Assembly: GCA_944326465.1 (NCBI GenBank)
Contig: CALVEB010000019.1
Span: forward strand, 1 to 40,274
DNA from: Candidatus Gastranaerophilales bacterium
GTDB lineage: Bacteria; Cyanobacteriota; Vampirovibrionia; Gastranaerophilales; Gastranaerophilaceae
Direction: 5' to 3'
Length of the DNA: 40,274 bases
The notes below the pieces were generated by a model that was not told where the DNA came from, did no database searches, and saw nothing but the letters and a program-made list of their open reading frames with translations. The number at the start of each line of letters is the position of its first letter. The stretch's first letter is position 1. This document shows, in pieces, positions 1 through 40,274 of the stretch. The position numbers were made by a program, and so were the translations under genes.

Positions 1-73
1 TAGCGAACGGAACGAGCCGACTGGAGCAACGCTCCTCAGGCGAGTCTCCGTGAGCGTGGAGCAAATCCAAGAC
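1..73 (+). repeat. Palindromic dispersed repeat, copy A (truncated by window edge)
   Basis: It carries the right part of the family: the inner stem GGAGC-AAC-GCTCC and the right terminal inverted repeat GCAAATCC at 61-68. The segment 1-150 is repeated at 40125-40274 with one mismatch (75 versus 40199). Confidence 0.85.
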
Positions 74-10541: not shown

Positions 10542-11938
10542 TGTTCAACAGAAAAATCACACAAAATTGTCATTGCGAGCCGTTAGGCGAAGCAATCCAG
10601 CCGATTGAAACAGACGTTAATCGTCACAAAGCCACAGGGACTAATTCCTGTAACCACTTAATCACTCAATCACCTGTCTTGGATTTGCTCCACGCTCACG
10701 GAGACTCGCCTAAGGAGCGTTGCTCCAGTCGGCTCGTTCCGTTCGCTATCCGGACTCGCTACGCTGTCTTGCTCGCCGGCGTTAAACGGGTCTGCAACGC
10801 CGCCGCCTTCGCGTCGCCGTTTCGCCCTCTGCCGGCTCGCGCTCCGTCCGTCCGCAAATCCGCTAGTCACTTAATCACTTCAAAAGCGGCCGCCTTTACT
10901 CTCGCAGAAGTCCTAATCACCCTCGCGGTTATCGGAATAGTGGCAGTACTGACCATCCCAAACCTTATGCAGAACAACAACCAGAAAGCATGGGATACAG
11001 CAGCAGATGTCTTTAACAAACGACTTGAAGTCGCAGCCCGTGTCATGAATACACAGGAAACCTTAGCAGGGTATTCAAACACCAAAGACTTTGTTACAGA
11101 ACTAAAGAAACACATCAAAATAACAAGAATATGCGATAACGATGAATTAACAAAATGTTTCCCTGAAAAAGTCTTTTGGGGTGCAGAGCAGGAAGAAATA
11201 GATGTAGAAAAGGATATTAAAAGCGCTAAAAACATGGGACAGGATGACTGGGGGACAGAAGTTATAGGTGCACAGTTTGCAAACGGAATAGATGCATTAA
11301 TAGCTTATGACCCGAATTGTACTCAAGATCCGTATAATAACCAGATTCAGGCTTCTAATTGCGTGGCAATATTATATGATGTCTCTGCCAAAAAGAATCC
11401 AAACAGCTATGGCAAAGACCTTCGCGCAAACGGTAAAGTTCTTTCTTTAGGCGGAATAGAATGCGCATTTGAAGTAGCAGGAACATGTTATACAAATCCT
11501 GCATTGCCAACACCAATGACACTTGCAGAATGTGAACAGGCTGTACAAGAAGGTACTTTAGGAATAAAAGAATGCCATTATGACAACGATTACTGGGCAG
11601 GAGCAGTAAAACACTGCGGCGGAGTCCAGAACATGCCAACACCTGCACAACTAGCAGAGATAGCAACTGATTTGTATGGTGATCATGGATTTAGTACAAG
11701 CGGCTACGAATACAAAGATGGCTTAACCATGGACAAGACCAAGTCCTACGTATCAATTCTTGATGCAGTATACGGCGACTCAGTATCAGGCAGACCAAGC
11801 GGCGAATTCGCTATTTGGTCAGGGCAGGAGTCTGACGGCTACTACGCATATGATCGTGGGTTCGTCTCTGACTACACGCTCGCGGACGGCTACTACCGCG
11901 GCACTAACTACGCACTGGCGGTTTGTCTTGGTGATTAG
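10538..11938 (+). CDS. Type IV pilin-like DGR target protein with a repeat inserted in its leader
   Basis: 466 aa. AAAGGAG before the ATG supports the start. A classic prepilin N-terminal helix begins at F120 (FTLAEVLITLAVIGIVAVLTIPNL, with Glu at +5), so the mature protein would start there after cleavage at A119; -1 is Ala instead of the usual Gly. The mature part is exported and likely sits in a pilus or pseudopilus. It contains several Cys pairs and ends in IWSGQESDG...ALAVCLGD, which resembles the C-type-lectin-like fold of DGR variable proteins (inference). Codons about 424-465 are the variable repeat. Residues 11-119 are abnormal: they are translated from dispersed repeats (10571-10600 and 10681-10861), still in frame, making a ~119-residue leader where 5-30 is normal. 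No alternative start lies near F120. The gene may be impaired or may tolerate the insert. Confidence 0.8.
   Translation: MMFNRKITQNCHCEPLGEAIQPIETDVNRHKATGTNSCNHLITQSPVLDLLHAHGDSPKERCSSRLVPFAIRTRYAVLLAGVKRVCNAAAFASPFRPLPARAPSVRKSASHLITSKAAAFTLAEVLITLAVIGIVAVLTIPNLMQNNNQKAWDTAADVFNKRLEVAARVMNTQETLAGYSNTKDFVTELKKHIKITRICDNDELTKCFPEKVFWGAEQEEIDVEKDIKSAKNMGQDDWGTEVIGAQFANGIDALIAYDPNCTQDPYNNQIQASNCVAILYDVSAKKNPNSYGKDLRANGKVLSLGGIECAFEVAGTCYTNPALPTPMTLAECEQAVQEGTLGIKECHYDNDYWAGAVKHCGGVQNMPTPAQLAEIATDLYGDHGFSTSGYEYKDGLTMDKTKSYVSILDAVYGDSVSGRPSGEFAIWSGQESDGYYAYDRGFVSDYTLADGYYRGTNYALAVCLGD
10571..10600 (+). repeat. Short CATTGCGAG...GAAGCAATCC repeat inside the pilin leader
   Basis: Resembles a type of short repeat scattered in many bacterial genomes, with ATTGC (10572-10576) and GCAAT (10592-10596) as inverted ends. 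It is read in frame as HCEPLGEAIQP. Confidence 0.55.
10681..10861 (-). repeat. Palindromic dispersed repeat, copy B (in frame in the pilin leader)
   Basis: 181 bp with perfect ends GGATTTGC (10681-10688) and GCAAATCC (10854-10861), and the inner stem GGAGC/GCTCC (10714-10726). It lies opposite in strand to copies A, C and E. It is longer than other copies because of an inner GC-rich segment (about 10760-10845). Read on + it gives LDLLHAHGDSPKERCSSR and so on, with no stop. Confidence 0.85.
11808..11935 (+). repeat. DGR variable repeat (VR)
   Basis: 128 bp at the 3' end of the pilin-like gene. It aligns without gaps to the template repeat at 12686-12813. The first 32 bases are identical. In the next 96 there are 20 substitutions, all opposite adenines of the template (20 of 37 A changed, 0 of 59 other bases). 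The A-free stretch CTGGCGGTTTGTCTTGG near the end is the likely initiation-of-mutagenic-homology region. Changes are mostly in the first two positions of AAC codons, giving Tyr, Gly, Val, Leu, Asp and so on. Confidence 0.95.
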
Positions 11939-12984: not shown

Positions 12985-13011
12985 AGGGGAATAAGGGAAT
13001 GAGGAAATAGC

Positions 13012-13123
13012 GGATTTGCGTACGGATGGCGCGAACGAAGTGAGCAAATCCGGATAGCGAGCAGATTGAGCCAGCTTGTGCGTAAGCACAACAGGCGATA
13101 CTCTGCGAGCGTGGAGCAAATCC
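13012..13123 (+). repeat. Palindromic dispersed repeat, copy C
   Basis: 112 bp with ends GGATTTGC (13012-13019) and GCAAATCC (13116-13123). The inner stem is the alternative type TTGTGC-GTAA-GCACAA (13076-13091). It is flanked by GGGAATAAG-type runs as in copies A and E. Confidence 0.8.
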
Positions 13124-13155
13124 AAGACAAGGGAATAAGTTCGTTAATAGAATCA

Positions 13156-18076: not shown

Positions 18077-18379
18077 TAGCACCCCTTTTTTTAAAATTTG
18101 TATTTTTACACTATAAATGTAGCACATTTATTAAAATATTTCAAATTTTATTTTCAAAAAGATTTCTGATGTGCAGGCGAGGTAATCCAGTCAATTAAAA
18201 AGTGATTAAGGATTCTGAGACTAAGAGATTAAGCGGGTTAAAAAATAGGGTTCGTTAAAATCTTGTATTGTCGTTTAAAAGACACTTGGTTATTAGCGAA
18301 TTCACGGACGCAGTAAATTCAAGACATGGCACTGATGCACTAAGTAGTTACAGCAAGATAAAAAAGAACATAATTCCTC

Positions 18380-18404
18380 TGTTTTATGCGCTTGGCGCGA
18401 TTCG
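18380..18404. repeat. Duplicate of the tRNA-Lys 3' end (att-like direct repeat)
   Basis: 25 bp identical to 18610-18634, which covers the last 17 bp of the tRNA gene plus 8 bp beyond it. The two copies are exactly 230 bp apart and enclose repeat copy D and the tRNA terminator. This is typical of site-specific integration at a tRNA 3' end, but no integrase is seen. Confidence 0.75.
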
Positions 18405-18408
18405 TCTT

Positions 18409-18518
18409 GAATTTGCTCCACGCTCACGGAGACTCGCCTGTTGTGCTTACGCACAAGCCGTCTCGTTCCGTTCGCTATCCGGATTTGTGCCTGTGGCACT
18501 TCATCCGTCCGCAAATTC
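18409..18518 (-). repeat. Palindromic dispersed repeat, copy D
   Basis: 110 bp. Its ends are GAATTTGC (18409-18416) and GCAAATTC (18511-18518): both ends differ from the other copies by one base, and in a way that keeps them complementary. The inner stem is TTGTGC-TTAC-GCACAA (18441-18456). A degenerate mini-copy lies at 18297-18326. The stretch 18077-18617 holds no gene. Confidence 0.8.
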
Positions 18519-18577
18519 GCCGAACGCTTTGACAAGGCATTCGCCTTGTGCGCGTTCTACAAATCCTGTCAAAACAG

Positions 18578-18617
18578 ATAAAACAAAGGATAGGTTAAAA
18601 CCTATCCTTTGTTTTAT
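18578..18617 (-). terminator. Terminator of tRNA-Lys
   Basis: Perfect 17-bp inverted repeat (arm ATAAAACAAAGGATAGG, loop of 6) immediately 3' of the tRNA on the minus strand, followed by CTGTTTTG. Confidence 0.8.
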
Positions 18618-18689
18618 GCGCTTGGCGCGATTCGAACGCGCGACCTATCCCTTAAAAGGGGAGTGCTCTACCTGCTGAGCTACAAGCGC
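18618..18689 (-). tRNA. tRNA-Lys (anticodon TTT)
   Basis: 72-nt cloverleaf on the minus strand. Acceptor GCGCTTG pairs with CAAGCGC. The D arm is GCTC...GAGC, the anticodon loop CTTTTAA, and the T arm GCGCG-TTCGAAT-CGCGC. The outermost anticodon-stem pair is C-T. CCA is not encoded. The 3' end is duplicated at 18380. Confidence 0.95.
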
Positions 18690-40060: not shown

Positions 40061-40089
40061 TGAAGGCACTAAGTTACTAAGGCACTAGC

Positions 40090-40192
40090 GGATTTGCGGA
40101 CGGATGGAGCGAAGCGAGTCCGGATAGCGAACGGAACGAGCCGACTGGAGCAACGCTCCTCAGGCGAGTCTCCGTGAGCGTGGAGCAAATCC
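40090..40192 (+). repeat. Palindromic dispersed repeat, copy E
   Basis: 103 bp with ends GGATTTGC (40090-40097) and GCAAATCC (40185-40192), inner stem GGAGC-AAC-GCTCC (40147-40159). From 40125 to the window end the sequence equals the window start. Confidence 0.9.
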
Positions 40193-40274
40193 AAGACAAG
40201 GAAATAAGGGAATAAGTTCGTTACAAAAGTAATATTATTCCTTCTCCATTTATCATTATCCTTTAATAAAATCA

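Follow-up and report, generated by a model that had tools for sequence, protein, structure and literature searches.

The window, which is the whole 40,274-nt stretch of Candidatus Gastranaerophilales DNA that was analysed, carries an intact tRNA-Lys(TTT) gene followed on its 3' side by a terminator-like inverted repeat, a small hairpin, a structured palindromic body, and a second copy of the tRNA 3' tail (Table 1). The two tails lie in a direct repeat (positions 18375-18404 versus 18605-18634), 29 of whose 30 positions are identical, with a spacing of 230 bp. The repeat comprises the last 18 nt of tRNA-Lys, starting from C56 in the T-loop, and 12 nt of the trailer, which are a part of the terminator hairpin. 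A sequence-only reading had reported that a 25-bp direct repeat of the tRNA-Lys 3' end flanks a palindromic repeat, copy D, and this was confirmed: an exact 25-mer forms the core of the repeat (18380-18404 and 18610-18634). Assuming independent bases and the composition of the window, 3e-6 exact 25-mer pairs are expected in 40 kb.

Between the direct repeats lies copy D (18404-18520), which has 34 other matches in the same genome (37 matches minus the query itself, its hairpin arm, and one match to another tRNA). Taken as its reverse complement, the 5' arm of the small hairpin reads as the 5' strand of the tRNA-Lys T-stem followed by TTC. Only one open reading frame of at least 100 aa overlaps the unit; it starts with TTG, encodes 136 aa (18268-18678), runs into the tRNA gene, and has no Pfam match.

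Table 1. Features of the tRNA-Lys locus and dispersed copies of its body type in the window
Feature	Position	Strand	Remarks
tRNA-Lys(TTT), intact	18617..18689	-	ARAGORN; Rfam RF00005, 71 bits; 3' tail is the first repeat copy
Terminator-like perfect inverted repeat	18578..18617	-	19-bp arms, 2-nt loop; immediately 3' of tRNA-Lys
Small hairpin	18522..18557	-	3' arm GCGTTC; 5' arm GAACGCGC at 18550-18557
Structured palindromic body, type A (repeat copy D)	18404..18521	-	Genome-wide BLAST copies; compensatory pairs
CAAGAC body end (GTCTTG on the plus strand)	18404..18409	-	
tRNA-Lys 3' tail, second copy	18387..18403	-	GAATCGCGCCAAGCGCA
Probable decayed second copy of trailer/terminator start	18357..18386	-	TAAAACARAGGA and TTTATC common to first copy
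Direct repeat, distal member	18375..18404	.	Partner 18605-18634
Dispersed type A copy	1-73	-	
Dispersed type A copy	10676-10754	+	
Dispersed type A copy	13010-13128	-	
Dispersed type A copy	40088-40197	-	

Tail copies and model matches behind tRNA genes

To find similar arrangements, 16-nt tRNA tails starting from A58 were searched for within 1 kb downstream of tRNAs, allowing up to 3 mismatches, and tRNAs with at least 300 nt of downstream sequence were counted. The scan covered 36 tRNAs of the window's own genome (G000), 35 tRNAs of G001 and 37 of the 39 tRNAs of G003, both from the same genus, and 18 of 43 tRNAs in each of G011 and G046. Tail copies were found at 10 of 33 testable tRNAs in G000 and at 8 of 32 in G001, as well as at Arg-ACG of the latter genome, where the contig ends 210 nt downstream. 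No tail copy was present at the 32 testable tRNAs of G003. The one copy found at 17 tRNAs of G011 is the tail of a neighbouring tRNA, and the 18 tRNAs of G046 yielded none; G046 does have a unit at tRNA-Asp, which is outside those 18. When tails were compared with sequences downstream of other tRNAs, 5 matches were obtained in 1221 comparisons. This null and the expectation for exact 25-mer pairs rule out a chance origin of the tRNA-Lys repeat.

The tRNA-Ile gene of G000 is an eleventh tRNA with a unit, from which it is separated by a 12.8-kb island, and two further copies of the dispersed repeat lie behind a tRNA with a duplicated tail. Only three tRNAs (Lys, Arg-TCT, and Leu-TAG) have tail copies in both G000 and G001, and the presence of units varies among close relatives. 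A unit behind the tmRNA gene of G014 repeats the tmRNA 3' end. Unit size in the loci read is 104-395 nt, which gives a family range of about 100-400 bp, and no recombinase genes were seen inside the units read.

Comparison of the tRNA-Lys loci of relatives, which the sequence-only reading had called for, revealed a tail copy in 7 of 29 loci, with small bodies between the two copies. The body is of type A in G000, G001, and G004, and of other types in G002, G006, G008, and G014. Thus, the duplicate does exist without copy D, yet another body fills the gap, and the idea of an insertion is not refuted by these genomes. No duplicate was found within 1.1-1.5 kb downstream of tRNA-Lys in G003, G005, G011, G012, G018, and others (two of the 22 loci without a tail copy had less than 200 nt of readable sequence), and only the start of a unit is present in G019 and G033.

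A covariance model, R1, was built from 11 hand-picked segments of a second body type, type B; type A units were found by their tails and not by R1. Of 59 relatives, 45 have a match to the model. In a phylum-wide draw of 386 genomes, 149 have one (28 of 142 genera), and all of these positive genomes belong to the window's order. G003, despite having no tail copies, has two model matches, one of which was read and is not behind a tRNA. For 43 loci (24 best matches with loci and 19 chosen by us among the matches listed), 60 model matches were placed relative to tRNAs: 36 directly follow a tRNA or tmRNA on its strand, at a distance of 26-178 nt, 14 are next in an array, and 10 are neither. None of the 60 matches had a tRNA on the opposite strand.

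Arrays of three units are present at tRNA-Met of G002 (178-bp spacing and equal model scores), at Arg-CCG of G004, and at Ser-GCT of G001, where the third unit is weak, while two units each are found at tRNA-Gln of G002 and G004 and at tRNA-Met of G004. At Arg-TCT of G001, serial units are of different types and have separate terminators. Eight model-matched loci have no tRNA. Three of them contain arrays of units with tRNA-Asn-like tails and no tRNA in the stretch (L427, G000 C2:143543-143885; L432, G001 C3; L408, G033 C29). Of the others, L443 and L445 look dispersed, L411 is at a contig edge, and L403 and L415 end in other tail-like sequences. The tRNA-Asn contig of G000, C17, ends 140 nt behind the tRNA, and an island or an assembly break may therefore separate tRNA-Asn from its array. 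One exact pattern searched across viral contigs, as a sign of phage carriage, gave 0 matches.

These data bear on an origin that the sequence-only reading had offered for the repeat, namely that an island was excised there and left a scar; a prophage scar is considered here together with it. Such a scar would leave a duplicated tRNA 3' end, and true islands do exist at other tRNAs of G000 (tRNA-Ile and tRNA-Pro). The same size range, fold, and borders are however seen at many tRNAs and in many genomes, and the tRNA-Ile island sits in front of an ordinary unit array and does not produce one. We therefore reject the scar, which we regard as highly improbable. Since units of one architecture, each with a conserved folded body, are found behind many tRNAs and form tandem arrays, they are better described as a family of small elements than as a remnant. 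The other half of the suggestion, a very small element inserted at the tRNA, comes close to this result, and the view of the repeat as an insertion-type duplication of a tRNA 3' end is right.

The island at tRNA-Ile (L337, G000 C8:31000-46200) is ca. 12.8 kb long and encodes two large serine recombinases of 548 and 491 aa (PF00239 and PF07508), the first of which overlaps the tRNA-Ile end. At tRNA-Pro-TGG (L338, G000 C7), the 3' half of the gene from the anticodon arm is duplicated ca. 1.8 kb downstream, with no CAAGAC; this is a classical island-type att duplicate.

Anatomy of the units and fit of their arms to the adjacent tRNA

Read in the sense of the tRNA, the intact gene is followed by a terminator, which separates it from the unit, an inverted copy of its own 3' end, a small hairpin, and then a split T-arm. 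In this second half of the unit, the T-stem 5' strand with TTC(G) is followed by the body, usually CAAGAC, and again the tRNA sequence from A58 to the discriminator base. The inverted copy (GGGATGAGAACCC, compared with GGGATTCGAACCC for the true antisense) and the small hairpin precede the split copy in many units. Identity with the tRNA begins at position 56-58 in 43 of 53 units; an exact CAAGAC ends at the border in 26 of 53, and CAAGA is present within a few bases in 47 of 53. The 53-unit set comes partly from loci fetched for a model match and so yields no rate, and one of its members (L271, Ala, 4 mismatches, preceding T-run) is probably false. Based on where identity starts and on CAAGAC at the border, we conclude that in the second copy a folded palindrome interrupts the loop of the T-arm, near TTC(G)/A58.

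When all units are pooled, arms match their own tRNA more closely than they match other tRNAs, though this does not hold for every unit. The score of the inverted arm against its own tRNA was 18.1, versus 14.7 +- 0.42 with permuted labels, and none of 20,000 permutations was as good (25 tRNA types). Single units vary: in 15 of 53 units the own tRNA comes out on top, and in 6 of 53 it falls in the bottom half of the tRNAs compared (Tyr, Leu-GAG, Val-TAC, Val-GAC, Ile, and one Gly-CCC). An anchored test of four T-stem positions gave 3.15 of 4 matches versus 2.14 +- 0.23 (p=1e-4) for the 22 of 28 units, of 11 tRNA types, that could be anchored, the hairpin anchor being missing in the other 6; the effect on the T3 side was weaker (p=0.016). 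For the T-stem and TTCR in front of the body, 6.69 of 9 positions matched versus 5.64 +- 0.17 (0 of 20,000 permutations as good) in 31 of 53 parsed units of 19 types, the 22 units that could not be parsed being left out.

The consensus folds of both body types are supported by covariation. In type A, the window type, 35 pairs are predicted from 7 sequences, with two-sided compensatory changes in 19; in type B, 27 pairs are predicted from the 11 segments, with such changes in 18. In our reading of the predicted folds, Watson-Crick pairs alternate with tandem G.A steps in bodies of both types. Bodies at different tRNAs can be nearly identical: the alignment of the bodies from Arg-ACG and Ser-GCT of G001 reaches 98.7% of the full score, that from Tyr and Leu-TAG of G000 93%, and that from Gln and Gly-CCC of G032 91%. 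The mean likeness of type B bodies was the same by tRNA and by genome (0.63 in both cases, 33 of 53 units parsed). Gene conversion between units could also be the source of near-identical bodies at different tRNAs.

Type A bodies are also dispersed away from tRNAs, where most of them lie between short tandem octamers rather than in T-loops. The octamers that flank most of the dispersed copies in the window are TTATTCCC, TTAATCAC, and TAAGACGT. The type A copy at 10676 harbours a nested type B body (10763-10844) and is located in the upstream portion of a frame whose match to the pilin-type N_methyl domain is weak and below cut-off. Some type A copies elsewhere precede a sequence that we translate as FTLAEVLITL.

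Compensatory changes in the fold are also what a structured RNA of the tRNA 3' trailer would display. The units could be such an RNA, with a role in processing, attenuation, or decay, that was tandemly multiplied and is lost only slowly. All 50 tRNA-linked model matches are on the strand of the tRNA, and the arms are complementary to their own tRNA end, as expected for an RNA element. On the other hand, terminators stand between the tRNA and the unit, type A bodies also occur away from tRNAs, and no tail copy is present at the 32 testable tRNAs of G003, nor at most tRNAs of G000 and G001. We consider this explanation improbable.

Sites with and without units were compared by aligning their flanks; since the first 16 letters of each row are tRNA tail by construction, only later columns are informative. 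At Leu-GAG, the second tail of G000 is followed by the same 22 nt as the tRNA of G003, while a different terminator follows the first tail; beyond the 22 nt, the flanks of G000 and G003 have no clear alignment. At Gln, the second trailer of G000 is 93% identical to the G003 trailer over 41 nt, and the first trailer matches too, less closely. Behind the Arg-CCT array of G000, the flank aligns collinearly with that of G003, which lies 520 nt closer to its tRNA (76% over about 860 nt). The locus taken as "empty" at Gly-TCC of G000 holds a piece of a type C-like body and is not a clean empty site. In 20 of 52 units, the likeness between the trailers after the two tails exceeded the 99th percentile for mismatched pairs, which indicates that the terminator was also duplicated in many units, although tandem repetition explains a part of this. 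A target-site duplication of fixed length was considered and found unsupported, as identity beyond the tail ranges from none to more than 45 nt.

Proposed modes of insertion and candidate enzymes

The repeat in the window may thus be the far border of one mobile unit of ~100-400 bp that targets T-arms of tRNA and tmRNA genes in Gastranaerophilales, a reading to which we give about even chances and whose mechanism we infer from sequence comparisons. The mobile part would be the palindrome. An enzyme provided in trans would act on it as a folded single strand and insert it into the T-loop, whose sequence is similar in all tRNAs. During insertion or the subsequent repair, the 3' end of the gene and the terminator would be duplicated, leaving the host with a working tRNA. 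The fold-back arms could come from copying of the adjacent T-arm, by template switching at a quasi-palindrome, and additional units could arise by repetition or by unequal exchange between tails. No mobilising enzyme was found among the candidates examined.

The main rival is that whole cassettes, with their own tRNA tail as an attachment core, are serially integrated, in an island-like manner, by a site-specific recombinase acting in trans; the proximal tail would then be that of the element, and the distal tail the original one. We regard this as unlikely, though deserving serious consideration. The borders of the units are explained by both T-loop insertion and cassette integration. A border in the T-loop and a tmRNA target are typical of integrases (for the tmRNA T-loop, see PMC3146451), and the 22 nt of original flank behind the distal tail at Leu-GAG are as cassettes would leave them; they count for T-loop insertion too. 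At the same locus, the first trailer is less like the original one than expected after a simple, recent duplication, which counts against T-loop insertion. The serial units of different types with separate terminators at Arg-TCT of G001 likewise favour cassettes. T-loop insertion is favoured by the bodies, which are nearly identical across tRNAs while tails and arms are tRNA-specific, and by the presence, in the second copy, of the T-stem 5' strand, which a tail-only core does not predict. The related trailers of the two copies in 20 of 52 units and the lack of a recombinase gene in the units read also speak against cassettes.

Tyrosine recombinases were considered as candidate enzymes. By score, two of six such proteins of G000 are XerC/D-like, and none reaches the NCBIfam cut-off for integron integrases (best score 165 bits versus 265). 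Short tyrosine recombinases, among the matches listed, are present in genomes both with and without a Lys unit; no link to the units was seen, which counts against cassette integration. Two of these proteins in G000 (L105, C14:32005, and L106, C34:9036) are 179 aa long and match only the C-terminal part of XerC/D-type models. They adjoin HTH_3 and HipA genes (HipA was tested in L106) and, in L105, also an Eco57I-type methylase gene; similar short recombinases occur in many relatives among the matches listed.

Another candidate for the mover, which we regard as improbable, is a RAYT (REP-associated tyrosine transposase, Y1/HUH) of the same genomes; the GTCTTG end of the bodies would then take the role that the GTAG tag has in REPs. 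Matches to RAYT family NF047646 are present in 26 of 59 genomes. Within the window's family, model counts are higher in genomes with a RAYT match (median 7 versus 1, p=4e-4, or p=0.03 when restricted to matches over the cut-off; the statistic ignores kinship). Of 44 examined RAYT rows (of 46; tallied by hand), seven are located 3' of a tRNA at a distance of at most 1 kb, and one is located on the 5' side; the binomial p for the 3' side is 2.6e-5 at an assumed frequency of 2%, a value that we estimated from roughly 38 tRNAs, with 1 kb each, in a genome of 1.9 Mb. Both results count in favour of a RAYT. Against it, the R1 scan of RAYT loci gave matches only at G028:C6 and at remnants at G028:C21 and in G002, none of which flanks both sides, and G014, G031, and G032 have 11-14 model matches and no RAYT match. 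Behind 10 checked RAYT genes or remnants, there was no tail copy except for one 4-mismatch match lacking CAAGAC, and the RAYT of G026 is flanked by a different small palindrome of its own. The type A and B consensus sequences had no BLAST match in 23 Y1 loci, while at one RAYT locus, G010:C9:7819, a unit was recognised by its tail. The support for a RAYT as the mover, tested with PF01797 and NF047646, is therefore circumstantial. A RAYT gene or fragment lies behind tRNA-Arg of G026 (L473, C3; flanking palindrome GTTGGGGTTTCTACCCCAAC), and another behind the tRNA-Met unit array of G002 (L428, C14).

Comparison with known systems

Downstream of tyrT of E. coli, tandem 178-bp repeats (rtT RNA) each contain about the last 19 nt of the tRNA, and Rfam includes an rtT family. 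The units described here are similar in that they are tandem and each starts with a tRNA 3' end. To our knowledge, the tyrT repeats occupy one locus, and we know of no fold-back arms or T-loop palindrome there. When the window and 19 unit loci were scanned against Rfam, only tRNA and tmRNA were listed at gathering cut-offs, and no rtT homology was seen.

The attC site of integrons is recombined as a folded single strand, conserves structure over sequence, and forms same-orientation arrays behind one primary site. Such arrays are also formed by the units, in which arms and a predicted fold are present that might serve as a comparable single-strand site. Unlike integron cassettes, the units contain no recognisable gene, and their site copies the local tRNA. 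The inverted arm, hairpin, split T-arm, and tail of one DNA strand might fold into a double-stranded version of the tRNA 3' end, from which the palindrome protrudes at the T-loop; this would be an attC-like site with the tRNA gene as its partner site. The arrays would then be gene-free and integron-like, with essential tRNA and tmRNA genes as attachment sites and cassettes re-addressed by copying the T-arm of a new tRNA. We consider this combined proposal quite unlikely.

Serial islands at ssrA, the tmRNA gene of Dehalococcoides, have a border in the T-loop, a 20-bp repeat of the gene 3' end, an adjacent motif, and tandem growth (PMC3146451). The units share with them the T-loop border, the 3'-end repeat of about 20 bp, the tandem arrays, and a motif directly before the repeat. 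The ssrA islands are kilobase-sized, use a serine recombinase (absent in some), and have one target. The units, unlike them, are ~100-400 bp long with no recognisable genes, occur at many different tRNAs, and possess a folded palindrome in the T-loop as well as target-matched inverted arms. A direct repeat of the 3' end of an RNA gene at the far border is what is found at islands; neither an integrase nor cargo was recognised in the unit at tRNA-Lys, where the only overlapping frame of at least 100 aa is without a Pfam match, and the units are small in the loci read.

The tag of REP sequences is GTAG or CGTC (PMC3733652). The units are like the REP/RAYT system in being short, tagged palindromes present in many copies, with RAYT genes in some of the same genomes, and they differ in their tag, GTCTTG/CAAGAC. 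The end tag is conserved, as in REPs; no RAYT gene flanked by the same repeat was found among the RAYT loci scanned. Unlike REPs, the bodies are about 80-120 bp long, with predicted tandem G.A steps, and are sited in copies of tRNA T-loops. In the open-access literature (subscription papers being outside the scope of the search), no description of such tRNA-tail hairpin units was found.

Tandem units can break assembly contigs at tRNA genes and resemble att sites of islands; island finders that rely on tRNA fragments may therefore miscall them. If our reading is true, the genomes of one order of gut bacteria harbour a large element family whose members insert into a highly conserved stretch of essential RNA genes and leave the target genes working, with target-matched arms that are unexplained by any described element that we found. 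The origin of the matched arms would then bear on template switching, folded-DNA recombination, or T-loop-directed transposition.
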